The translations under genes were made by a program, and so were the position numbers. 64,000 bases of DNA from Albidovulum litorale (GTDB taxonomy: Bacteria > Pseudomonadota > Alphaproteobacteria > Rhodobacterales > Rhodobacteraceae): the NCBI RefSeq assembly GCF_025751495.1, contig NZ_JAOWKZ010000004.1, forward strand, positions 62,001 through 126,000. The letters are read 5' to 3'. Shown piece after piece: positions 13 to 12,182 of the stretch; position 1 is the first letter of the stretch, and every line of letters starts with the position of its first letter. The notes beneath the pieces are model-generated. The model made no database searches, was not told the origin of the DNA, and was given only the letters and a program-made list of their open reading frames with translations.

Positions 13-498
13 TCAGCTTTTGCCGATCTTGATCTTGCGTGTTCTGGATGCAGCCCCTTCGGGCTTGTCGATGTGCAGCTTCAGCACGCCGTCCTTGAAA
101 CGTGCCTGCACCTTGCCTTCGTCCGGCGTAAAGCCGAGCGACACCGAGCGGCGGAAACTGCCATAGCGGCGTTCGACAACGTGGTAGTTTTCCTCCTTCT
201 CCTCGTGATCGCTCGACTTCTCGCCCTTCAGCGTCAGAACGCCATCGGTAATTGACACATCGATGTCCTTTTCCGCGACACCGGGGATTTCAGCCGAGAT
301 GTCGATGGCCGTGTCGGTTTCGGCGATATCGAGCGCCGGCATGAGACTGTCTTCGCTGCGGTCCCAGAGATCGCGGGCCGACATTGGCCAACCGGTGCCG
401 AAGCGATCGAAAACACGTTCGATTTCGTCATGCAGGGACTTGAAAAAGGGACTGTCTTGCGCTGGCTCGATGCGGCTGGGAAGGGCTCTATGTTTCAT
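13..498 (-). CDS. Small heat-shock protein, Hsp20 family
   Basis: ATP-independent holdase chaperone of the alpha-crystallin family, 161 aa, cytoplasmic. The alpha-crystallin domain runs from about residue 55 to 150: an acidic start (ALDIAETD), the ISAEIPGVAEKDIDVSI strand pair, a GVLTLKGEK segment and the conserved A-x-x-x-(N/D)-GVL element near the end (ARFKDGVLKLHI). I start at the ATG at 498 because AGGAGA lies just upstream; an in-frame ATG at 543 lacks such a site. It is divergent from the bactofilin-like gene, and an FNR/FixK-like palindrome lies between them, which suggests low-oxygen control. Family assignment is firm; the inducing signal is inferred. Confidence 0.93.
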   Translation of the reverse strand: MKHRALPSRIEPAQDSPFFKSLHDEIERVFDRFGTGWPMSARDLWDRSEDSLMPALDIAETDTAIDISAEIPGVAEKDIDVSITDGVLTLKGEKSSDHEEKEENYHVVERRYGSFRRSVSLGFTPDEGKVQARFKDGVLKLHIDKPEGAASRTRKIKIGKS

Positions 499-575
499 GA
501 CGGCTCTCCTGACGGTATTCGGCTCCGCCCGACTCGGGGGCATGCGTGAGTCTAGGGCGGACTAGCCGGAAAGAC

Positions 576-589: not shown

Positions 590-645
590 TCGGGCGGGTA
601 TCGGCATGGCTTATGGTCAAACCCCGCAAGCCCGGAGGAGCAGTC

Positions 646-1842
646 ATGACGTTTCGCGCAGCAATCTTTGCCCTTCTGACAGCCGTGGCATCGCCGGCCG
701 GGGCCGGACCCGAGATTCAAGCGCTGGGCGGCGATCTTTTCATCGGCGGCTCGGGGACGGCGCGGTCGCTGGAGGCTGAACGAGATGTCTTCGCAGGCGG
801 TGCCTCGCTGGTCATCGACGGCAGGGTCGCCGAGGATCTGCATGTCAGCGGTTTCGACGTTGATGTCGATGCGCAGACCGCCGGAGACCTTTACGCGGCG
901 GGTGGCGCGGTGACGATCCGCGCCGCGACAGGCGGCGATCTGAGCGCTGCGGGTTTTTCCCTGCGCACGGCGCCGGCAGCTGAAACCGGCGGCAATGCGC
1001 GACTGGCGGGCGGGACGCTGACGATCGAGGGGCCCGTCAGGGGCGCGCTGGTGGCGACGGGCGCCGAGATCATATTCGATGCGCCGGTCGCAGGCGATGT
1101 CTGGTTGACCGCACACAACCTCACCTTGGGCGATGCCGCTAAGATCGGCGGCAAGCTGATCTATTCCACCCCCTCCGAGATCATCATCCCGCCCGGCGTT
1201 ATCGACGCAGACCGGATCACCTACCGGCCGCTCGACCGGATGCAGATGTTCGAAGAGGCCCGCGATGCCTGGGGGTCGCGTGAATACCCGGCCTTGCCCG
1301 GCTTCATGTCGTTCTTCGCCGGGTTCATCCTGATGCTCGCCTTCTTCCTCGGGCTTGCCGCGATCTGCCTGACCTTCCTGCCGCGACAGGTCGCGCATCT
1401 GAAAAGGAGCGCGGATAACCGGCCGGGCACGACCCTGCTGACTGGCCTTATCGGACTTTCTATCCTCTTCGGTCTCGTCCCGGTCAGTGCGCTGACTGTG
1501 ATCGGCTTGCCAATGGTGCCGATCGTCATCCTGACCATCATCGCGATCTGGGTGCTGGGATATGTTCTCGGCGCCTATGTGGTGACGATGCGGTTGACTG
1601 GCGCTTTCGGGCCCGGGGATTCGCCGGGGCGGATCGGCGAGCTTGGCCTTCTCGCGGTGACACTGACCGCAGCTGCGGTTCTCAACTTCATCCCGGTGCT
1701 CGGATGGGTGCTCAATTTCGGCCTCGTTCTTTTCGGAACCGGCGCGATTGCCAGCGTCATTTTTGAACGGATGATTGGATCGGCCGGGCCTGTGCGCGAC
1801 GCCGCGTTGGAACCGATTCCGGACGAACGCGACGGCGCGTGA
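646..1842 (+). CDS. Exported bactofilin-like beta-helix protein with C-terminal membrane domain
   Basis: 398 aa. The N-terminal 20 or so residues form a signal peptide ending at Ala-Gly-Ala. Residues about 22-190 are short repeated blocks (GGDLF, GDVWL, AGDLY, GGDLS types) like the right-handed beta-helix of polymer-forming cytoskeletal/bactofilin domains. Residues about 215-385 contain four to five hydrophobic segments. The beta-helix would sit outside the cytoplasm and the C-terminal part in the membrane. The ATG at 646 follows GGAGGAG; an in-frame ATG at 613 would add 11 residues and spoil the signal peptide. Its function is not established. It sits in the putative FixK-controlled island, divergent from hsp20. 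Confidence 0.8.
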   Translation: MTFRAAIFALLTAVASPAGAGPEIQALGGDLFIGGSGTARSLEAERDVFAGGASLVIDGRVAEDLHVSGFDVDVDAQTAGDLYAAGGAVTIRAATGGDLSAAGFSLRTAPAAETGGNARLAGGTLTIEGPVRGALVATGAEIIFDAPVAGDVWLTAHNLTLGDAAKIGGKLIYSTPSEIIIPPGVIDADRITYRPLDRMQMFEEARDAWGSREYPALPGFMSFFAGFILMLAFFLGLAAICLTFLPRQVAHLKRSADNRPGTTLLTGLIGLSILFGLVPVSALTVIGLPMVPIVILTIIAIWVLGYVLGAYVVTMRLTGAFGPGDSPGRIGELGLLAVTLTAAAVLNFIPVLGWVLNFGLVLFGTGAIASVIFERMIGSAGPVRDAALEPIPDERDGA

Positions 1843-1867: not shown

Positions 1868-2166
1868 ATGCCTGCCAAGGGACTCAAAGTCATAGATCAC
1901 ACGGTACAATCGACGGATGAATGGTTCAATGAACTTCAGGAGCGCCTGCAACGGGCCAGCGCGCGTGATGTGCTGCTGGTGTTCCGGGTGACGATCCCAG
2001 CGCTACGCGATCGTCTCGGCATGACGCTACAGCCCAGTTCGCCGCGCAGATGCCGATCCTGATACCAGGTATCTATTACGAGGGCTGGAAACCCTCATCA
2101 CCACCCCTGACGGATCGGAATGTTGAGGATTGCGCAGGGCATATCGAGCGCGAGGTCGCGGGAGTC
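1868..2166 (+). pseudogene. DUF2267 gene remnant, frameshifted and truncated
   Basis: The first frame from 1868 (MPAKGLKVIDHTVQSTDEW...ALRDRLG) matches the start of DUF2267 proteins. At about 2020 the homology moves to the -1 frame, which continues HDATAQFAAQMPILIPGIYY then EGWKP, the family's signature segment. Homology ends near VAGVTILPP, where the sequence runs into the 3' end of the convergent fixK. The intact family is about 130-150 residues, so the C-terminal third is missing as well. DUF2267 genes often accompany Hsp20 and CBS genes in stress or microaerobic islands, which fits the neighbours. I read it as a decayed gene. Confidence 0.75.
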
Positions 2167-2857
2167 ACGATCCTTCCGCCATGGCCCGCAGCCGTGATGC
2201 GTCGAGCACGATCATCGTGTGCGCATCTTCAAGTGCGATGATCTTCTGCTCGCGAAACTGGGTAATAGACCGGCTGATCGTTTCAGGCGTCAGGCCGAGA
2301 TAGTCTGCGATGTCGGAACGGTTCATCGGCAGGTGGATCAGCCGGTAAGCGCCGAGCGGCTCACCGATCCGGTCGAGCAGCAGACACAGGAAAGCCGCGA
2401 CTTTCTCGCTGGCCAGCCGTCGGCCAAGCATCAGGAAATGATCCTGAAGCATGCTGATTTCGTCCAGCGCGGCTGCCATGATCACCGAATGAAACGAGGG
2501 ATCGCCGTCGGGCAGCACAAGAGGGTCGCAGCGATGCGCGACGATCTCAGTCTGGGTCACGGCATCGCATTCCGTCGAATGTCGTCCGTCGTTGGGCAGG
2601 CCGACCAGATCGCCCGGAAAACCGAAGGCAATCACCTGACGCCGACCATCCTTGTGTAGGCGGGTAAGGCGGACGACACCGGAGACAACTTCGTAAACGA
2701 ACCGTGCGGGGTCCGATTCAAAGTAGAGATGCTGCCCCTCGCTGAGCTGCCGCGACAGTCTTTCCACCACTGGTCGGGAACCGTTTGGAATGACGCGCAA
2801 GGTCTGCTGAACGGAATGAATGTCGCGAGTCGGTGCTGTTAACATGATCGCCCCCAT
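2165..2857 (-). CDS. fixK: Crp/Fnr-family regulator, FixK-like
   Basis: 230 aa transcription factor with a cNMP-fold sensor domain (about 25-145), a dimerisation helix (about 120-150) and a winged HTH (about 170-225). The recognition helix LGLTPETISRSITQF carries the E-x-x-S-R set that reads TTGAT half-sites in FNR/FixK proteins. The N-terminus has no cysteine cluster, and the few cysteines are not in FNR positions, so it should not sense oxygen through Fe-S. Oxygen control probably comes from the adjacent response regulator and FixL-like kinase. A direct repeat lies 51-66 bp upstream of the start. A second in-frame ATG at 2845 is possible. The fixK name rests on features and context. Confidence 0.85.
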   Translation of the reverse strand: MGAIMLTAPTRDIHSVQQTLRVIPNGSRPVVERLSRQLSEGQHLYFESDPARFVYEVVSGVVRLTRLHKDGRRQVIAFGFPGDLVGLPNDGRHSTECDAVTQTEIVAHRCDPLVLPDGDPSFHSVIMAAALDEISMLQDHFLMLGRRLASEKVAAFLCLLLDRIGEPLGAYRLIHLPMNRSDIADYLGLTPETISRSITQFREQKIIALEDAHTMIVLDASRLRAMAEGS

Positions 2858-2907
2858 GAATGCAGGAACAAGGTGAACGCGTCATGTCGCAGCCGTGTCG
2901 GTGGATT

Positions 2908-2923
2908 TGTATCAAAGTGTATC
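2908..2923. promoter_or_regulatory. Direct repeat TGTATC-AAAG-TGTATC, candidate FxkR box
   Basis: Two identical hexamers in direct orientation with a 4-base spacer lie between the divergent fixK and response-regulator genes. On the fixK strand they read GATACA-N4-GATACA. The K-box bound by FxkR in Rhizobium is, as I recall, GTTACA-N4-GTTACA, so each half differs at one base with the same spacing. The 10-bp period is typical of an OmpR-type head-to-tail dimer site. Confidence 0.55.
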
Positions 2924-3011
2924 GGGGGCGGAATACTACAAGAGATTGAATTCCGAACTGTGAATATTACATTCTAGGCGTGGCATGATGATGTGCCATA
3001 TTGGGGGGACA

Positions 3012-3749
3012 ATGACAGACTGCCGAATTCTCGTCGTCGACGACGACAAGGCGGTGCGTGGCTTGTTGCGGCGCTGTCTGGAAAGCGACGGATATGAGGT
3101 AGCCGAGGCCGCCGGTGTCGATGACGCCATGGCGGCAGTTCGCGATGGCAGCATCGACCTCATGACGCTCGACCTCAATCTCAATGGCCAGAACGGACTC
3201 GACGTGGCTCAGGCGGTGCGAAAGTTCTCGGACGTGCCGATCGTCATGGTGACCGGACGCGGCGACGTGATCGACCGGATCGTCGGGTTGGAGATTGGCG
3301 CCGATGACTACATCACGAAACCATTCCATGTGCGTGAGGTTCTGGCGCGCATCCACAGCGTCCTGAGGCGAAGCGGGGGCGAAACGCACCCTGCGTCGGA
3401 GCGCGGCGCCAATGAAGCCTGCCCAGAATATGTATTCGCCGGGTTTCGGGCCATTCCGGATCGGCTGGAGCTTTTTAACCCTCAAGGTGAACTGATCGAA
3501 TTGACGGGCGGCGATTATCGGTTGCTTAAGGTCTTTCTCGAAAGACCGCGCCGGGTTCTGTCGCGTGAACAGATCATGGATCTGGTGAACGGTACCGGCT
3601 GGTCGCCTCTTGACCGCACCATCGACAATCAGGTCGCGCGCCTGCGCAAGAAGATCGAGCGCGAGCCGGGGGCGCCGAAGCTGATCAAGACGGTGCGTGG
3701 TGTTGGTTATACATTTGCTGCCGAGGTCGCCGCGTCGGGCCGCCTGTAG
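3012..3749 (+). CDS. OmpR-family response regulator, FxkR-like
   Basis: 245 aa. The receiver domain is residues 1-120, with acidic pocket D10/D11, phospho-acceptor D54 (LMTLDLNLNGQNG), T81 and K103 (ITKPF). The C-terminal winged helix, about 140-240, ends in the OmpR/PhoB wing (TIDNQVARLRKKIE ... VRGVGYTF). It is not the LuxR-type effector of FixJ. Start 3012 follows a GGGGGGA stretch; an ATG at 2985 would add nine residues before the receiver. It is divergent from fixK and convergent with the FixL-like hybrid kinase, the gene set of the hFixL-FxkR-FixK cascade. Predicted role: relay phosphate from the kinase and activate fixK. Confidence 0.87.
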   Translation: MTDCRILVVDDDKAVRGLLRRCLESDGYEVAEAAGVDDAMAAVRDGSIDLMTLDLNLNGQNGLDVAQAVRKFSDVPIVMVTGRGDVIDRIVGLEIGADDYITKPFHVREVLARIHSVLRRSGGETHPASERGANEACPEYVFAGFRAIPDRLELFNPQGELIELTGGDYRLLKVFLERPRRVLSREQIMDLVNGTGWSPLDRTIDNQVARLRKKIEREPGAPKLIKTVRGVGYTFAAEVAASGRL

Positions 3750-3834
3750 CGTTTCGGCTTTTCGTTGAATCAGAATTCGAGCCTTTTTCTGTCGAAATCT
3801 GATGCTTGGTATCTCATCAAAAACACGAAGCGCT

Positions 3835-5370
3835 TTAGGTCGCCCGGCCTGACAGCAGGATTCTGAGGCGGGTTGCAAGCTCTCCCTGTCGGTAGGGTTT
3901 GGACAGCAACTGAAAATTCGTCGAAAACCCGTTGCCTGGATGGATCAGGTCGCCGGAAAAGCCTGAGGTGAGCAGGATCGCGATGTCGGGTCGTTCCGCC
4001 CGGACTTTGCGGGCAAGGTCCAGCCCGTTCATCCCGCCTGGCATCACGATATCAGTAAAAAGCGCGTCGATCGCGGGATTAGAGGCAAGCAGCGTCAGCG
4101 CCTCATTCGCGTTCGACGCAGGCAAGGCTCGGTAGCCAAGCGCCTCGATCCGACTTACCGAAAGGCGCAGGATGGCTTCTTCATCCTCAACGACCAGAAT
4201 GGTCTGACCGGTATCTGGCGTGCCTTCCGGTTCGGGCCATTGGGCATCCGGCGAAACCGATGCGCCCACAGCCGCGGGAAAGTGCAGGCCAATGGTCGTG
4301 CCCAACCCGACCTCGCTGTAAAGCGTCACGTGCCCACCCGACTGACGCATGAAACCGTAGACGGTGGCAAGACCAAGACCGGTCCCCTTCCCTGGGGCCT
4401 TTGTGGTAAAGAAGGGCTCGAACGCCCGCCGTCTTACGTCCGGGGCCATGCCCTGACCATTGTCCGTTACCGAAATGCGTGCGTAGCGGCCCGGAGTTGC
4501 GCCGGTTTCTGCGGCAACGAACGTATCCGCTTCGACATTTGATGAACTGATGACAATCTCTCCACCGTTGGGCATCGCGTCCCGCGCATTGACGACAAGA
4601 TTGATCAGCGCATTCTGCAACTGTGCCGGGTCGGCGTCGATTTGCAGCACATTGTCACCAAGCGCCGTGCTGAGCTTAACGTGGGGCGAGAGGGTGCGGG
4701 ACAGGAGCGTGGTCACCTCTTCGATGACCGCGTTCACATCCAGCCGGATGGGCTGAAGCGGGCCTCGACGGCCATGGACCATCAGCTTGTCGATGACCTT
4801 CGAGCCGAGTTCGGCTGCCGTCAGCGCCTCGTTTAGCAGCGCCTTCTGATTGTCATCGACAAGTTTTGCTTCGAGCAGTTCGAGATTGCCAATGATGATC
4901 GTAAGGAGATTGTTGAAGTCATGGGCGATGCCGCCTGTCAGCCGGGCAAGCGCCTCCATTCGCTGAGCCGCCTCGACCGCCTGCTGCGCCTGGTGGCGAT
5001 CCGTCAGGTCATGCAGAAAGCCGACAAAAACCGGCTGGTCGCCCATGGTGCCGTGCCCGACACTTAGATGAGCCGGGAAGATGCTGCCATCCTTGCGAAC
5101 CGCTTCGACATCGCGACCGACCCCGATGATGTGGGCCTTGCCGGTGGCAAGATAGGCGGCAATCTTGCTGCTGTGGCCGACCTCCTCCGTATTCGGCACC
5201 AGCACATCGATGGAATCGCCCTCCATGTCACCCGGCGCATAGCCGAACATGGTCGCGGCTGCCCGATTGACCCTGATCATCCGGCCTTCGATATCGGCTA
5301 CGATGATCGCGTCGACTGCCGCATCGAAAAGGGTATCGAGCAGATTAGAACTGTCACTCGCCTGCGTCAT
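3835..5370 (-). CDS. FixL-like hybrid sensor kinase (PAS-HisKA-HATPase-REC)
   Basis: 511 aa and apparently soluble. The PAS domain is about residues 8-125, followed by HisKA with phospho-His 150 ([11 protein letters not shown]), HATPase with N, G1 and G2 boxes ([28 protein letters not shown]) and a C-terminal receiver with Asp in [13 protein letters not shown]. Aligned to Bradyrhizobium FixL, His66 takes the haem-ligand His200 position, His80 is His214 and Arg86 is Arg220 (HIIGVGR); the 14- and 20-residue spacings agree exactly. This predicts a haem-based oxygen sensor. FixL Arg206 is Ala here. A GTG at 5421 is an alternative start. It lies 57 bp downstream of the M50 protease gene, probably in one transcript. 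Confidence 0.85.
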
Positions 5371-5427: not shown

Positions 5428-6609
5428 TCAATCTGCGGGACCGAGTTGTCCAGACCGCCGTCCTGCGGTTCCCGTCGAACGTATCGGTCCAAGCTCTTGC
5501 AGAACCGCCAGATAGGCCATGAGGTCAGATAGAGTGATGACGCCGAGTAACCGCCCGCCTTCGGCGACCAGGAACTTGCGGCGCCCGCCCGAGGCGATCC
5601 GCGTCATCAATGCATCCGTCGCCACATCCGGCGTGATCGTGTTCGTGGGATCGCTGCGGACGTAAATATCGCCGACGTGCGTGTCGCCCCAGTTCTCGCG
5701 ATCGATCTTCTGCAAGAGCGCCGTGTCAACATATCCAAGAAGGTGATCGCCCTCCGTTACCGGTACGAAGCTCACTGAATGGCGCAGCATGATACGGTTA
5801 ACCACATCACCGAGCGTGTCGTCGGGCGTTGCAGTATGTATGCTTCGGCTCATCATTGTCGCGACGCTCTTGTCTCTGAGCGCCGTCTTGACCATCAGCT
5901 GCTGATAGGTTCCGCGGGCGGCCGTCAATAGGAAAAGCCCAATCAGCGCCTGCCAGAAGCCACCGATGACCGCACCGGAAAAGAGTGAGACGAAGCCGAA
6001 TGCAATCAATGCGTAGGCAAGGATTGCAGACGCGGCCGTCGCGCTGCGCGTCGCCTTGACGAGATCGCCCGACCAGCGCCAGAGAGCCGCCCGCAAGACC
6101 CGCCCGCCATCAAGCGGGAAAGCTGGAAGCAGGTTGAACAGAGCAAGGACGAAGTTGATCAGGGCAAGGTATTCCAGAACTGCCTGCAGAGGTTCGGAAA
6201 TACCGGTGGCTTTCGAAAGAAGGAGTGCCAGATAAGCGAGCCCCGCCAGTGCGAAGGACATGATTGGGCCTGCAATCGCAATCCAGAACTCCGAACGGGG
6301 ATCGACCGGTTCCTCGTCAAGCTCCGCAACGCCGCCAAAGATGAACAGAGTGATCCCGCCGATACCAAGCCCGAACCGCCGTGCCACGAGCGAATGGGCC
6401 AGTTCGTGCAGGATCAGCCCGGCAAAGAGAGCGACCATGGCGATGATCGCAAGGACGAGGTAGTCGCCCGTTCTCAATCCCGGGACTTGGGCGGGAAAAT
6501 AGCCCGACATCAGCGACCACACGACCAGAAAAGCGATAAAGAACCAACTGGCGTCGACCTTAACCTGAAAGCCGAAAATCTCGACCAACCGAACCGTACG
6601 CGAAAACAT
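5428..6609 (-). CDS. Site-2-type M50 metalloprotease with two CBS domains
   Basis: 393 aa intramembrane zinc protease. About six membrane segments span residues 10-225. The HExxH motif is LILHELAHSLVARRFG (around 65), and the second zinc ligand is in LPAFPLDGGRVLRAALW. Residues about 240-370 form a CBS pair (SVATMMSRSIHTATPDDTL; TDALMTRIASGGRRKF), which typically binds adenosyl ligands. Site-2 proteases cut transmembrane anti-sigma factors or signal proteins; the substrate here is unknown. Start 6609 follows GGAGG. Placement directly ahead of the FixL-like kinase suggests shared expression and possibly a role in the same low-oxygen response. Confidence 0.9.
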   Translation of the reverse strand: MFSRTVRLVEIFGFQVKVDASWFFIAFLVVWSLMSGYFPAQVPGLRTGDYLVLAIIAMVALFAGLILHELAHSLVARRFGLGIGGITLFIFGGVAELDEEPVDPRSEFWIAIAGPIMSFALAGLAYLALLLSKATGISEPLQAVLEYLALINFVLALFNLLPAFPLDGGRVLRAALWRWSGDLVKATRSATAASAILAYALIAFGFVSLFSGAVIGGFWQALIGLFLLTAARGTYQQLMVKTALRDKSVATMMSRSIHTATPDDTLGDVVNRIMLRHSVSFVPVTEGDHLLGYVDTALLQKIDRENWGDTHVGDIYVRSDPTNTITPDVATDALMTRIASGGRRKFLVAEGGRLLGVITLSDLMAYLAVLQELGPIRSTGTAGRRSGQLGPAD

Positions 6610-7116
6610 CCCAAAGCCTCCGGACCATGAGCAACAGCAAGTTTAGCCCTGGAAAATAGGATTGGGCTGATCCCGATCAAAGCGCCCGCCCCGGTACCAC
6701 GTTTGTCTGCATCTTTCGTACTCATGCGCGCTTCATGCTCGACAGTGTGAGTTCCTCGCCTCCAATCATCGGCATGAGCGTCTTTGGCGGACTGCACCTC
6801 TTTTCGGCTATTAATCCCATGTAGCGGTGAGTGGATTGAAACGGCCCAGGAACACATGGGTTCAGTGTGCATCGGATGATCGTTCCACGGATGGTCCTGT
6901 CTTTCAGACCACACGACGCGAAAGCGATTGATATCCGTCAACGCGCCGATCCGTTCTCCGTGCGAGACTTCAAGGAACCTGCCGGTTGTAGTCAGCACGG
7001 CGCGGGTTGTCTGCAGTAGCCCGAACTTCCTCGCGCCCCTGAAGTCGCGAGGTCAGGGTCGTGAGCCTGGCGCCCTGTGACTCGTAGCAACGGCCGACCC
7101 GACAGGGAGGCGAGAG
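6610..7116. other. Intergenic region of about 500 bp between divergent genes
   Basis: No open frame here resembles a protein. A minus-strand frame overlapping the M50 gene (about 6510-6998) has no domain signature and runs through a putative regulator site. The region contains one near-consensus FNR/FixK palindrome at 6928-6941 and otherwise nothing I can name. Remnants of decayed genes are possible, given the pseudogenes on either side. Confidence 0.5.
6928..6941. promoter_or_regulatory. FNR/FixK-type box TTGAT-ATCC-GTCAA
   Basis: Nine of ten consensus arm bases match TTGAT-N4-ATCAA, and the spacer ATCC is identical to that of the box at 8325. It lies 319 bp upstream of the M50 protease start and 176 bp upstream of the membrane-protein start at 7117. 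If active at -41.5, leaders would be about 284 and 141 nt, so which gene it serves is uncertain. Confidence 0.6.
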
Positions 7117-7575
7117 ATGGTGACTCTGAGAGGGCAAGGCATCAACTACGCCCGTGTATGTCTCGGCGGTCTTGTTGCCGGGCTCCTGCTGGCCGCAGGC
7201 GAGTCGGTCCTCGCCACGGTCGTGCTCAGCGACGAATGGGACGCGACGGCCGTCGACCCCGACGCGATGGCCTATGGCACATTGCTTTCCCTGGCTCTCG
7301 TAGGTGTTGTTGTGCTCAACGGATTCGTGCTGATCTGGCTTTATGCCGCAATCCGTCCGCGTTTCGGTCCGGGACCGACTACGGCGGTCATTGCGGGCTT
7401 CACACTCTGGCTGATCGCCTGGGCGCTTATGGGGGTGTCGCTGACGCTCTCGGGTGTGGTGACGCCACGGGTCGCCGTCATATCGGCGATCTGGGGGCTG
7501 TTCGAGGTGCCTCTGGCAGCACTTGCCGGTGCCTGGCTCTATCGCGAAGTCGGCGCGGCAGCATCCGCCGCATGA
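7117..7575 (+). CDS. Small four-helix membrane protein of unknown function
   Basis: 152 aa with four hydrophobic segments (about residues 12-32, 50-75, 85-110 and 120-140) separated by short charged loops. The ATG at 7117 follows a good GGGAGG site. I recognise no catalytic motif; an overall membrane-protein composition is all the sequence shows. It lies downstream of the 6928 FNR/FixK-type box and just before the Lnt-like remnant, so it may belong to the same low-oxygen island. Confidence 0.7.
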   Translation: MVTLRGQGINYARVCLGGLVAGLLLAAGESVLATVVLSDEWDATAVDPDAMAYGTLLSLALVGVVVLNGFVLIWLYAAIRPRFGPGPTTAVIAGFTLWLIAWALMGVSLTLSGVVTPRVAVISAIWGLFEVPLAALAGAWLYREVGAAASAA

Positions 7576-8324: not shown

Positions 8325-8338
8325 TTGATATCCATCAA
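8325..8338. promoter_or_regulatory. Perfect FNR/FixK box TTGAT-ATCC-ATCAA
   Basis: This is an exact match to TTGAT-N4-ATCAA. Its centre is 41.5 bp from the A of the sulfurtransferase start codon at 8373, the class II activator distance for a start site exactly at the ATG. No Shine-Dalgarno sequence precedes that ATG. Confidence 0.75.
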
Positions 8339-8372
8339 TGAGACCTGTCACTCCGACGTGCATCCTCCAACT

Positions 8373-9227
8373 ATGGACGGGCTGATATCGACAGACTGGC
8401 TGAACAGGCATCTCAGCGATCCCGATCTCGTGGTGCTCGACTGCACTGTGCACATTGACGAGACGCCGGAAGGGTTTATCAACCGCAGCGGCCTTGACGA
8501 TTACCTCCTTGGCCACATTCCGACGGCCGGATTTGCCGATCTGAAGGGCGACCTCTCGGACCAGTCCAGCCCGATCGAATTTGCGCCACCGAGTCCGGAT
8601 GCGTTCTGCGCCGCGATGGGCAGGCTCGGCGTTGGCGACGCGTCGCGCGTCGTGCTCTACGATTCCATGTTTTCTGCCTGGGCGGCACGGGTGTGGTGGA
8701 TGCTGCGTTGGGTTGGCTTTGATCACGCCGCGATCCTCGATGGTGGCTTAAATGCCTGGAAAGCCGAAGGCCGCTCGATCTCGACGGAACCGGCTATGCA
8801 TCCTCCCCGTGAATTGACGCCGCGTCCAAGGCCGGAGTTGATCGTCGGCGAGGACGAGGTGCGCGCAGCCATTGACAGCCCCGGGGCGCAACTGATCGAC
8901 ACCTTGCCGGCAGAGAGTTATCGCGGAGAGGTCGCCCTCTACGCCGACCGCGCTGGCCACATCCCGTCGGCTATCAACATCTCGGCACTGGACCTGATCG
9001 ACGAAACCGGTCGCTACAAGCCGCTTGTGCAGCTCGCGGCGATGCATGAGCTCGACCGGGACCAGCGGATCATCACCTATTGCGGAGGCGGAATCGCGGC
9101 CTCATCGGAGGCCTTCGCCTTGACGCGCCTCGGCTTCAAGGACGTCGCGGTCTATACGGCCTCGCTGCAGGAATGGGCCGCTAATCCCGCCAATCCGATG
9201 ACGCCGTCGTCGTCTGACTCGATATGA
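8373..9227 (+). CDS. Two-domain sulfurtransferase (rhodanese / 3-mercaptopyruvate type)
   Basis: 284 aa, tandem rhodanese domains. The N-terminal domain (about 5-135) includes RVVLYDSMFSAWAARVWWML and the GG-LNAWKAEG turn. The C-terminal catalytic domain (about 160-275) carries the active-site loop YCGGGIAAS, with Cys as persulfide carrier, and the GEVALYADRAGHIPSAINI segment. The CGGG-type loop favours 3-mercaptopyruvate/thiosulfate chemistry; the donor cannot be fixed. I start at ATG 8373 because homology begins there and an upstream TTG lies inside the FNR box. The stop overlaps the next start (ATGA), indicating translational coupling to the acyl-adenylate ligase. Confidence 0.88.
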   Translation: MDGLISTDWLNRHLSDPDLVVLDCTVHIDETPEGFINRSGLDDYLLGHIPTAGFADLKGDLSDQSSPIEFAPPSPDAFCAAMGRLGVGDASRVVLYDSMFSAWAARVWWMLRWVGFDHAAILDGGLNAWKAEGRSISTEPAMHPPRELTPRPRPELIVGEDEVRAAIDSPGAQLIDTLPAESYRGEVALYADRAGHIPSAINISALDLIDETGRYKPLVQLAAMHELDRDQRIITYCGGGIAASSEAFALTRLGFKDVAVYTASLQEWAANPANPMTPSSSDSI

Positions 9228-10654
9228 CAGGAGCAGGCGCGCCAGCTACCATGCGGATCAGCCTGCTCAAAGCGTTCACCTACGCGGCCGATGGGCTTTG
9301 GACGCATTGGGGCGGGCGCAGACGGATTGAAGCCCGGCAAGTCAGCCGCCTGCGGCGTCTGGTGGAGAGGGCGCGACGCGACTCGCCCCTGTTCGGGAGT
9401 CTCTACGCCGACCTGCCCGCGTCGGACAAGATCGACTTCGCCGATCTGCCAGTCACCCGTAAACCCGATCTTATGGACGGGTTCGATGACTGGCTGACAA
9501 TCCGGTCGCTTTCGCTCGAAAAGGCCCGCGCGCATCTGAGCGATATGGATAATGTCGGCGTGCCGGTCGGCGATGTCGCCGTATTTCAGACCTCGGGAAC
9601 ATCGGGCGAACCCGCGGTCATCGTCCTGTCCCCGGCATTTGTGGAGTACTACTTCGGCATCATGATGGCGCGCTTCGAGCGCTACCACTGGGCGATGATC
9701 CGCGACCTCAGAAACCGCGGCGTGCGGGTGACGATCACCGGTGGAAACGGTCATTTCGCGGGCAATGGGTTTAACAGGCTCGTACAGAACGTGAATCCGC
9801 GACTGGCTAGGGGCCTCGGCCTGACGTTCGTCGAGGCCGAGCAGCCAATCGATCGACTTGTCGAAAAACTGAATGCGATCCCTGACGTCGCGTGGATCGT
9901 CACTTATCCCAGTATGCTGAATATCCTCGTGCAAGAAAAGGAGGCCGGGCGGCTCAGGATCGAACCAGCACTCTTCAGCACGGGGGGCGAAACCCTCACA
10001 AGTGATCTCCAAGCGCGCGCCCTGCGGACCTTTCCCTCTCTCACATACGGCATTGCCGATTTCTACGGCTGCACCGAATGCCTCGCTCTCTCGTTCACCT
10101 GCAGCCAGGGCCGGAAGCATCTGAACGAGGACTGGGTGATCCTCGAAGCGGTCGATGAGGCGATGCAACCCGTTGCCGACGGCACCTTGTCGGACACGGT
10201 CCTGCTGACAGTCCTCGCCAACGAGGTTCAACCGTTCATCCGCTACGATCTTGGCGACTGCGTGCGGTTCCACACTGACACCTGCCCCTGCGGCTCACCG
10301 TTTCGCAGTTTCGATGTGGAAGGGCGACAGGCGACACTCGTGCGGGTCGGCAACGTCTCGCTGTCGCCGCTCGTCTTCGATCTGGAACACGAACAGGCCC
10401 GACGTGTCCAACTGGTACAGACCGGACAGAGAGCCTTCGAGGTGCGTATCCAACTGGTCGAAGGCGTGGCCGAAGGGCCGGTGTTTGACGCCGTCATCGA
10501 GTCGGTGGAACGGGTATTTCACGACAATGGGCTAGGAAATGTGACGATTAACGCGAGCGAAGCTCTCCCCGAATTCACCGCGAGCGGCAAATTCCACGAA
10601 GTCGTTCCTTTGCACGGCGCCGAGCTCCGGTTCTCCAAGCCATCGAATTTCTGA
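9224..10654 (+). CDS. Phenylacetate-CoA ligase / CapK-family acyl-adenylating enzyme
   Basis: 476 aa, AMP-forming ligase of the PaaK/CapK group. The P-loop-like TSGTSGEPAVIV lies near residue 125, the A5-type motif YGIADFYGCTEC near 285, and the acyl-adenylate motif IRYDLGDCVRF near 340. The family Cys-rich element TCPCGSPF follows, then the mobile C-terminal domain. The carboxylic acid substrate cannot be predicted. The start at 9224 overlaps the sulfurtransferase stop; ATG 9251 is an alternative. Coupling to a persulfide carrier raises the possibility that an activated acyl group meets sulfur rather than CoA; that is only an inference. Confidence 0.82.
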   Translation: MTGAGAPATMRISLLKAFTYAADGLWTHWGGRRRIEARQVSRLRRLVERARRDSPLFGSLYADLPASDKIDFADLPVTRKPDLMDGFDDWLTIRSLSLEKARAHLSDMDNVGVPVGDVAVFQTSGTSGEPAVIVLSPAFVEYYFGIMMARFERYHWAMIRDLRNRGVRVTITGGNGHFAGNGFNRLVQNVNPRLARGLGLTFVEAEQPIDRLVEKLNAIPDVAWIVTYPSMLNILVQEKEAGRLRIEPALFSTGGETLTSDLQARALRTFPSLTYGIADFYGCTECLALSFTCSQGRKHLNEDWVILEAVDEAMQPVADGTLSDTVLLTVLANEVQPFIRYDLGDCVRFHTDTCPCGSPFRSFDVEGRQATLVRVGNVSLSPLVFDLEHEQARRVQLVQTGQRAFEVRIQLVEGVAEGPVFDAVIESVERVFHDNGLGNVTINASEALPEFTASGKFHEVVPLHGAELRFSKPSNF

Positions 10655-10796
10655 CAAGTGGTATCTGAGTGTGACGACTACGTATTCTCGTCTCCGGGTT
10701 TCACATATTCGCCGACGTATCGGAGCGGGCGAATGGCGGCCCTGTGTGCAAATCCATGTCCGTCGTCAGAGTTTTCCGGACATCTTGGGCTGTTTA

Positions 10797-10830: not shown

Positions 10831-11811
10831 TTAGGCAGCAGCGGCTTGGTTCTGCAACCGTCGTTTTCTGATTGTCTGTGTCTTGATCTCCTCTCTCATC
10901 TTCAGGATCTTCGCACTTCGGCCGTGGTAGACATCGGCCGGCGTCAGGTTGGCCAGGCTCTCGTGGTAGCGATGGTTGTTGTAATGGTCGACGAAGGCGC
11001 CGATCTGCCGCTCGAGATCGCCGGGCAGGAAGTAGTTTTCCAGCAGAACCCGGTTCTTCATGGTCTGGTGCCAGCGCTCGATCTTGCCCTGTGTCTGGGG
11101 ATGGTGCGGCGCACCGCGAACGTGATCCATGCCCTTGTCATCGAGATAGTCAGCCAGGTCGGCGGCGACGTAGGACGAGCCGTTATCGCTGAGCAGCCTT
11201 GGCTTGTGCACGACCATGGCCTGATCGCACCCAGACGCGTCCAACGCCAGGTCCAGCGTGTCGGTTACATCTGCGGCCTTCATCGTCGTGCAGAGCTTCC
11301 AGGCAATGATGTAGCGGCTGTAGTCGTCAAGGATCGTGCTGAGATAGAACCAGCCCCAGCCGATCACCTTTAGATACGTGAAGTCCGTCTGCCAGAGCTC
11401 GTTTGGTCAGCTGGTTTTGTCCCGGAACTCGTCCGCAGCCTTTATCACCACATGGGCTGGCGCAGTGATCAGGTCCTCGGCACTGAGAATGCGATACACC
11501 GAGGATTCCGACACGAAGTAGCGCTTCTCGTCGGTGTATTTGACCGCAAGTTCCCGGGGCGTCAGGTCCTCGTGCTCCAGAGCAAAATCGACAACATCGT
11601 CACGAACCGTGTCCGGGATGCGGTTCCAGACCGATCCGGGCCGGGGAGATCGATCGGCAAGCGCATCGATGCCACCATCGCACCAACGGGCATACCAGTC
11701 GTAGTAGGTGCTGCTGGGGATGCCGAGCATCTTCAGCGTTTGCCGAGTCGGCAGATGCGACGCCTCGACAGTGCGGATGATCTCGAGCTTCTCTGAGGCT
11801 GGGTATCTCAT
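10831..11811 (-). pseudogene. IS3-family transposase orfB with in-frame TGA
   Basis: The two parts are in one frame, separated by a single TGA at 11407-11409. The N-terminal 134 codons encode a HTH segment (TRQTLKMLGIPSSTYYDWYA). After the TGA the frame resumes PNELWQTDFTYLKVIGWGW and continues through the rve/DDE integrase core: D in WQTDFTYLK, D in LLSDNGSSYVAADL and E in QTQGKIERWHQTMKNR, so the DDE triad is intact. A CGA-to-TGA transition in the linker would explain the stop. Without readthrough or reinitiation at ATG 11367, no full OrfAB transposase can be made. Confidence 0.82.
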
Positions 11812-12182
11812 TCGTCGTCCTCCCCATCCCCGATCATGCTTTTTTTGAGCAGACGGTTCTCAAGCGTCAGCTCGGCCACGACCTCCTTCAGGGCCAATGC
11901 TTCAGATCGCAATTCTTTGACCTCAGGCGCTGTCGCCTGACGGGCCGTGTCACCCGCCAGGCGGTTCTTCCCAGCTTCAAGAAACTCCTTCGACCAGGAA
12001 TAATACAGGCTCTCGGCGATGCCCTCGCGGCGACACAGCGCGGCGATACTCTCCTCGCCACGCAAGCCGGCCAGGACGATCCTGATCTTCTCCTCGGCCG
12101 AGTAATGCTTGCGGGTCTTCCGCTTGATGCCCCTGACCAACTTGTCAGCGGCATCCTTCGATGTTCCGGGTTTCTGTTTCAT
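11808..12182 (-). CDS. IS3-family transposase orfA
   Basis: 124 aa DNA-binding subunit. An HTH of the IS3 OrfA type spans about residues 25-70 (YSAEEKIRIVLAGLRGEES ... LCRREGIAESLYYSW), followed by a leucine-zipper-like coiled coil (about 88-118, EVKELRSEALALKEVVAELT) used for OrfA/OrfAB multimers. The reading frame is intact. Its last codons include the A7 slip site that would fuse it to orfB. Confidence 0.87.
   Translation of the reverse strand: MKQKPGTSKDAADKLVRGIKRKTRKHYSAEEKIRIVLAGLRGEESIAALCRREGIAESLYYSWSKEFLEAGKNRLAGDTARQATAPEVKELRSEALALKEVVAELTLENRLLKKSMIGDGEDDE

Follow-up and report, generated by a model that had tools for sequence, protein, structure and literature searches.

Does a member of the Rhodobacterales encode the oxygen relay in which a hybrid kinase, hFixL, acts through the OmpR-family regulator FxkR on fixK, a system characterized in rhizobia? 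This question is raised by a stretch of 64,000 nucleotides from Albidovulum litorale (contig NZ_JAOWKZ010000004.1, positions 62,001 to 126,000; hereafter the window), near the start of which lie genes for a FixK-like protein, an OmpR-family response regulator and a hybrid kinase. The initial annotation proposed that these genes encode the same three-gene relay as a compact cassette outside the rhizobia, with its own regulon around it. Our analysis indicates that the cassette represents the hFixL-FxkR-FixK relay in its Rhodobacterales form, a reading to which we assign a probability of about 0.85. The gene content and order, the conserved heme residues of the kinase, the conserved operator upstream of fixK and the enrichment of FixK-type boxes are established from the sequence. 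The cassette is arranged as follows:

2165 to 2857, minus strand: FixK-type Crp/Fnr regulator of 230 amino acids, without N-terminal Fe-S cysteines and with an E..SR recognition helix (translation; Pfam, NCBIfam and PDB matches).
2908 to 2923, minus strand: GATACA-cttt-GATACA, a direct repeat resembling the K-box, which reads towards fixK and precedes its start (2857) by 50 nt.
3012 to 3749, plus strand: FxkR-like OmpR-family response regulator of 245 amino acids with phospho-acceptor D54 (open reading frame, Pfam, R. etli FxkR search, trees).
3835 to 5370, minus strand: hFixL-like hybrid kinase of 511 amino acids, with one FixL-type PAS, HisKA (AHDFNN box), HATPase and a C-terminal receiver (Pfam, hFixL search, PAS alignment).

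Translation, open reading frames (ORFs) and domain searches bore out the description first given of these genes, namely a Crp/Fnr gene devoid of N-terminal Fe-S cysteines, a divergent OmpR-family regulator with D54 and a convergent PAS-HisKA-HATPase-receiver hybrid kinase. The Pfam domains were Crp HTH and cNMP-binding in FixK, Response_reg and Trans_reg_C in the regulator, and PAS, HisKA, HATPase_c and Response_reg in the kinase. The open frames extend beyond the chosen starts, that of the regulator from 2985 and that of the kinase to 5421.

Of the 390 genomes of the order, 61, that of the window among them, have the regulator at E 1e-60 or better; they belong to 31 of 139 genera, and the one same-genus genome listed gave no match at this threshold. 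Loci were fetched from the 60 other regulator-bearing genomes, and in 51 of them the order was kept, with FixK and regulator divergent and regulator and kinase convergent. Among the nine exceptions, no FixK match stood beside the regulator in five (L177, L180, L183, L188, L189), and the kinase was displaced in two (L165, L166) or lay outside the fetched stretch in two (L169, L170). The same layout is found in Terrirubrum of the Hyphomicrobiales (L012) and on a Sulfitobacter plasmid (L011), where its neighbours are ccoO-Q-P-G, FixH-family, P-type ATPase and ccoS genes and genes for universal stress proteins; on a Tropicibacter plasmid the kinase is separate from the other two genes. The idea of a three-gene cassette outside the rhizobia is sustained by the layout that the window shares with these 51 loci of the order. 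Transposase-like ORFs (IS3-type by eye) occupy positions 10831-12182, a few kb from the cassette, and together with the plasmid copies found elsewhere they fit mobility of the module.

The searches of the host genome, which cover its assembly of 4.05 Mb, singled out the same genes. The hFixL of Rhizobium etli retrieved the window kinase as the best match (430 bits; runner-up, 269), and R. etli FxkR retrieved the window regulator (210 bits; runner-up, 153). Scored against rhizobial sequences, the window kinase reached 395 bits with R. etli hFixL, 386 bits with the hFixL of pRL9 and 135 bits with the FixL region of Sinorhizobium meliloti; its alignment with hFixL starts only at residue 141, and it contains one PAS. 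The top PDB matches of the PAS segment are FixL chains. A model of rhizobial FixL gave 21 matches in the genome, and only that of the window kinase starts in the PAS part of the model (at position 124, compared with 236 or beyond for the remaining matches); none of the 21, the window kinase included, reached the cut-off of the model. The kinase possesses the residues matching H200 and R220 of Bradyrhizobium japonicum FixL, which we take to be the proximal His and the ligand-facing Arg in that numbering, as well as those matching I215 and L236. In an alignment of 57 kinases (those of the window, L011, L017 and the fetched loci with a match that spans the PAS) the proximal His position is H in 53 and the Arg position is R in 54. 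By its residues the window PAS is thus of the FixL heme type, and heme binding is predicted.

In a quick tree of the regulators, 60 cassette rows formed a clade with support 97 (the window, L010, L011 and 57 fetched loci; of the other three of the 60, L131 was dropped for a stop, and L188 and L189 fell outside), and a larger clade, with support 82, joined these rows to Terrirubrum and five rhizobial rows. The outgroup consisted of the best 80 of 587 OmpR rows obtained by scanning genome contigs with a single regulator, mostly unrelated Firmicutes and Gammaproteobacteria proteins. The corresponding kinase tree placed hFixL and the cassette kinases in one clade with support 96, which also takes in L055, L075, L104, L116 and L193. 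L055, a gammaproteobacterial Contendobacter metagenome-assembled genome, carries at about 10001-10705 a regulator 47% identical to the window's, and its locus also has a 523-aa kinase match with the FixL His and Arg; it is possibly a related relay outside the Alphaproteobacteria.

The K-box GTTACA-N4-GTTACA upstream of fixK is the binding site of rhizobial FxkR, according to the consulted parts of two publications (PMC4999443, PMC7888657). In the host genome the pattern GWTACA-N4-GWTACA has a single exact occurrence, at 2908-2923. We scored the FixK/regulator intergenic region of 56 relatives (54 of the 60 fetched loci, L010 and L011, with L169 dropped as a duplicate), and the repeat was perfect in 35 and matched at least 11 of 12 positions in 51, the means of 100 dinucleotide shuffles being 0 and 0.16 (largest 2), respectively. 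With spacers of 0-3 or 5-12 bases instead of 4, at most 3 of the 56 reached 11. All 52 boxes scoring at least 11, the window's among them, point to fixK, and the distance to its projected start is 26 to 67 nt, most commonly 54. Scored against GTTACA, the positive controls reached 11 (fixK9b/fxkR9 region) and 12 (R. rhododendri), and S. meliloti GR4 reached 10. In Terrirubrum the genes are present, and the K-box is unconvincing (10/12, at an odd distance).

The third component of the proposal, a regulon around the cassette, concerns FixK-type boxes (anaeroboxes, listed without strand) and the neighbouring genes:

13 to 543, minus strand: Hsp20 small heat-shock protein; 22 of the 60 relatives' loci have a homolog, 8 of them with an anaerobox upstream of it.
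576 to 589: anaerobox-like CTGAT-N4-ATCAG between hsp20 and the membrane protein gene.
613 to 1842, plus strand: membrane protein without a Pfam match; 31 of the 60 loci have a homolog, 19 of them with an anaerobox upstream of it.
5428 to 6609, minus strand: M50 protease with CBS domains; 33 of the 60 loci have a homolog.
6667 to 6680: anaerobox-like CTGAT-N4-ATCAA upstream of the M50/CBS protease gene.
6928 to 6941: anaerobox-like TTGAT-N4-GTCAA.
8325 to 8338: perfect anaerobox TTGAT-N4-ATCAA preceding a rhodanese gene.

The window contains four YTGAY-N4-RTCAR sites, all within its first 8.4 kb, and two more lie in the 20 kb to its left. Allowing one mismatch to TTGAT-N4-ATCAA gave five sites in the window, against a shuffle mean of 1.07, and none of 100 shuffles reached five; one of the five is distant (61118) and another, at 2902-2915, overlaps the K-box, of which we take it to be a by-product. 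Across 0.98 Mb, the fetched loci contained 108 TTGAY-N4-RTCAA boxes, compared with 3 occurrences of the reversed pattern, and the window's genome has 38 in 4.05 Mb; the density is about 12 times higher around the relatives' cassettes when the baseline is the window's genome rather than the relatives' own. With a simple ORF caller, 75 of the 108 boxes lay outside ORF interiors. The family of the membrane protein at 613-1842 is the biggest group behind these boxes. Genes for Hsp20, universal stress proteins, M50-CBS proteases and DUF2267-like proteins recur around the relatives' cassettes: homologs were found in 24 of the 60 loci for the DUF2267-like piece, in 1, 36 and 26 for three universal stress protein queries from the Sulfitobacter plasmid, in 33 for the CBS protein and in 25 for the P-type ATPase; for ppsA, ccoP and ccoG they were found in 5 each. 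The window gene at 7117 and the rhodanese and AMP-binding genes had homologs in none of the 60 loci. The proposed regulon is upheld in that FixK-type boxes cluster around the cassette, and the genes behind them are predicted targets.

Four further observations concern this region or its genome. Rhodanese and AMP-binding-type genes (8325-10654) follow the perfect anaerobox. A disrupted DUF2267-like frame at 1868-2165 runs towards the fixK end and leaves a 64-aa piece, and its intact homolog in L171 matches Pfam DUF2267. The ccoN gene of the genome lies apart from the cassette (C3:978523), with anaeroboxes at C3:978200 and 978232. An FnrL-like gene with N-terminal cysteines (C7:425433-426032) is located beside a hemN-like frame and has an anaerobox in front.

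Several results weigh against the reading of the cassette as the hFixL-FxkR-FixK relay, and those on FixK are among them. R. etli FixKf matched the window FixK with 87.5 bits, barely above the FnrL-like gene of the same genome (85.1 bits), so that the searches with the R. etli proteins were clear for kinase and regulator and marginal for FixKf. In addition, one FixK tree, which included very long outgroup rows, set FnrL closer to the cassette FixK than FixKf (96/81). The cassette FixK rows formed a group of their own (99/99), and in a topology test (p-AU, approximately unbiased) the grouping of FixKf with them was neither shown nor rejected (p-AU 0.387). In NCBIfam the best match of the window protein was FixK of Caulobacter (142.6 bits), followed by FnrL (115.8 bits), both below the cut-off of 300; in the PDB it was FixK2 (113 bits; FNR, 73 bits), and the protein combines the lack of Fe-S cysteines with an FNR/FixK recognition helix. 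These bit scores lean towards an origin from FixK proper, but the topology test spoke against a clade of the cassette FixK that includes S. meliloti FixK and FixK2 (p-AU 0.028). Identity with DnrF of Dinoroseobacter shibae also looks unlikely, as the consulted part of the source, which gives no sequence, assigns an adjacent locus number to a carnitine dehydratase gene (PMC5398030). The window FixK is thus at most a possible ortholog of FixKf.

The remaining contrary results bear on the rival explanations. That the window holds a generic OmpR-family pair with a hybrid kinase, merely placed beside a Crp/Fnr gene and resembling hFixL-FxkR at the family level only, is very improbable in our estimation. 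OmpR-type regulators and hybrid kinases are indeed very common (31 regulator matches in the genome, receiver-only ones counted), and the clade supports are moderate: the regulator joined FxkR in one clade in both trees, at 82 in the quick one and at 88/73, which is not strong, in the careful one (cassette rows, 23 of them, with Terrirubrum and rhizobial FxkR). In the careful kinase tree, which has long branches, hFixL and the cassette kinases formed no exclusive clade, and uniting them was not rejected (p-AU 0.24). The operator too departs from expectation, since the window's box differs by one base per half from the rhizobial GTTACA, the relatives mix GTTACA and GATACA, and 5 of the 56 score below 11. 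Moreover, genome-wide exact boxes, tallied by hand in 30 of the 60 cassette genomes and 20 of the 329 genomes without the cassette, hardly exceed the reversed pattern (31 vs 22 with the cassette; 10 vs 12 without). Of those 31 boxes, 20, in 18 genomes, are at the cassette and 11 elsewhere. With genome-wide counts near the control, the K-box signal consists in position at the cassette, and with the other exact boxes at control level, fixK may be the only K-box target. A generic pair, however, would hardly account for a three-gene layout kept in 51 of the 60 loci, for a K-box-like repeat conserved at a near-fixed distance from fixK or for R. etli hFixL and FxkR searches that rank the window genes first.

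A relay and operator as described, with a kinase whose PAS heme senses NO, CO, redox or another ligand instead of oxygen, is unlikely. Such a sensor would agree with a pocket that departs from FixL at 203 (K) and 206 (A), with general stress genes as neighbours and with the absence of the proximal His in 4 of the 57 aligned kinases (L134, L176, L180, L186), among which L134 carries the regulator closest to the window's. Nevertheless, the best PDB match of the PAS is FixL, H200, I215 and R220 are kept, and anaeroboxes of the FixK type surround the cassette. We consider it quite unlikely that the cassette was acquired by the window's genome and is now decaying or silent there, as might be suspected from the fairly long end branches (1.13 for the kinase and 0.84 for FixK, not flagged as extreme), the disrupted DUF2267-like neighbour and the lack of a regulator match in the sole same-genus genome; the three ORFs are intact, the catalytic residues are present and the operator halves are identical. 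The claim of the same three-gene relay therefore stands in large part, carried by the kinase and regulator matches, the heme residues, the operator and the boxes, and its qualifications are the moderate FxkR clade, the unsettled relation to FixKf and the variant form of the system, with one PAS and an altered K-box.

Compared with the relays of R. etli CFN42 (p42f, L129) and Rhizobium leguminosarum/johnstonii 3841 (pRL9, L009), the cassette shares a receiver-bearing hybrid PAS kinase, an OmpR-family regulator, FixK and, upstream of fixK, a direct repeat whose halves are 4 bases apart; on pRL9, fixK9b and fxkR9 are likewise divergent, with a K-box between them. In contrast to rhizobial hFixL, the window kinase has a single PAS; its operator has GATACA for GTTACA in both halves and lies about 20 nt nearer fixK, as projected by alignment; and its three genes are all adjacent and near stress genes, not nif/fix genes. 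With the FixL-FixJ-FixK system of S. meliloti pSymA (L210, an unannotated stretch whose genes were assigned in part by match) it has in common a sensor of the heme-PAS type, a FixK output and anaeroboxes downstream. FixJ is a NarL-type regulator, whereas the cassette regulator is OmpR-type by Pfam. FnrL/FnrN of the Rhodobacterales use the same class of DNA box, but FnrL senses oxygen via its own Fe-S cluster, for which the window FixK has no cysteines. Gemmobacter and Tabrizicola plasmids (L013, L015) carry OmpR-type regulators that neighbour metal-transport genes and are 47% identical to the window's; they differ in lying outside the FxkR clade, with no FixK or hFixL-like match in their stretches. 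An R. etli plasmid (L014) carries an FxkR-like gene near denitrification genes (nirK, nnrS-type, nnrU-type).

We propose that the hybrid kinase would bind oxygen at its FixL-type heme-PAS and that falling oxygen would release its autophosphorylation, the phosphate passing to D54 of the FxkR-like regulator; the receiver of the kinase itself probably buffers or resets the signal. The phosphorylated regulator would then bind GATACA-N4-GATACA and switch fixK on, the presumed direction of regulation. FixK, which without cysteines would not sense oxygen itself, is predicted to act on TTGAT-N4-ATCAA-type boxes nearby and elsewhere, inducing a set of low-oxygen stress genes that includes those for Hsp20, universal stress proteins and M50-CBS protease.

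The consulted parts of a survey of 50 alphaproteobacterial genomes report that R. etli, R. leguminosarum and S. meliloti have hFixL-FxkR-FixKf orthologs, put the origin of the cascade in the Rhizobiaceae, with Agrobacterium also named, and give FnrN alone for the Rhodobacterales (PMC4999443). Within the consulted portions, the FxkR/hFixL literature appears rhizobial or plant-related only and yielded no hFixL-FxkR relay in the Rhodobacterales, although the founding paper (Zamorano-Sanchez 2012) may hold an earlier mention; by term count, FixL and FixK are absent from the main text of work on D. shibae (PMC5398030, PMC7232146). What is new, relative to those parts of the survey, is a variant of a known relay in an order to which FnrN alone had been given. 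Tentatively, hFixL-FxkR could be a widespread mobile oxygen module of the Alphaproteobacteria, originally unlinked to nitrogen fixation, whose single target in the Rhodobacterales is a locally recruited FixK governing a dormancy-like island of low-oxygen protection (Hsp20, universal stress proteins, M50-CBS protease, DUF2267, P-type ATPase), the rhizobial symbiotic version being a later specialisation.

In summary, the varied operators of these cassettes form a natural set on which to test how FxkR reads DNA. Furthermore, since the window and 51 loci of the order carry a like cassette, mostly with the operator, the FNR/FixK regulon should be expected to receive a second oxygen input, based on heme, in the large order Rhodobacterales.

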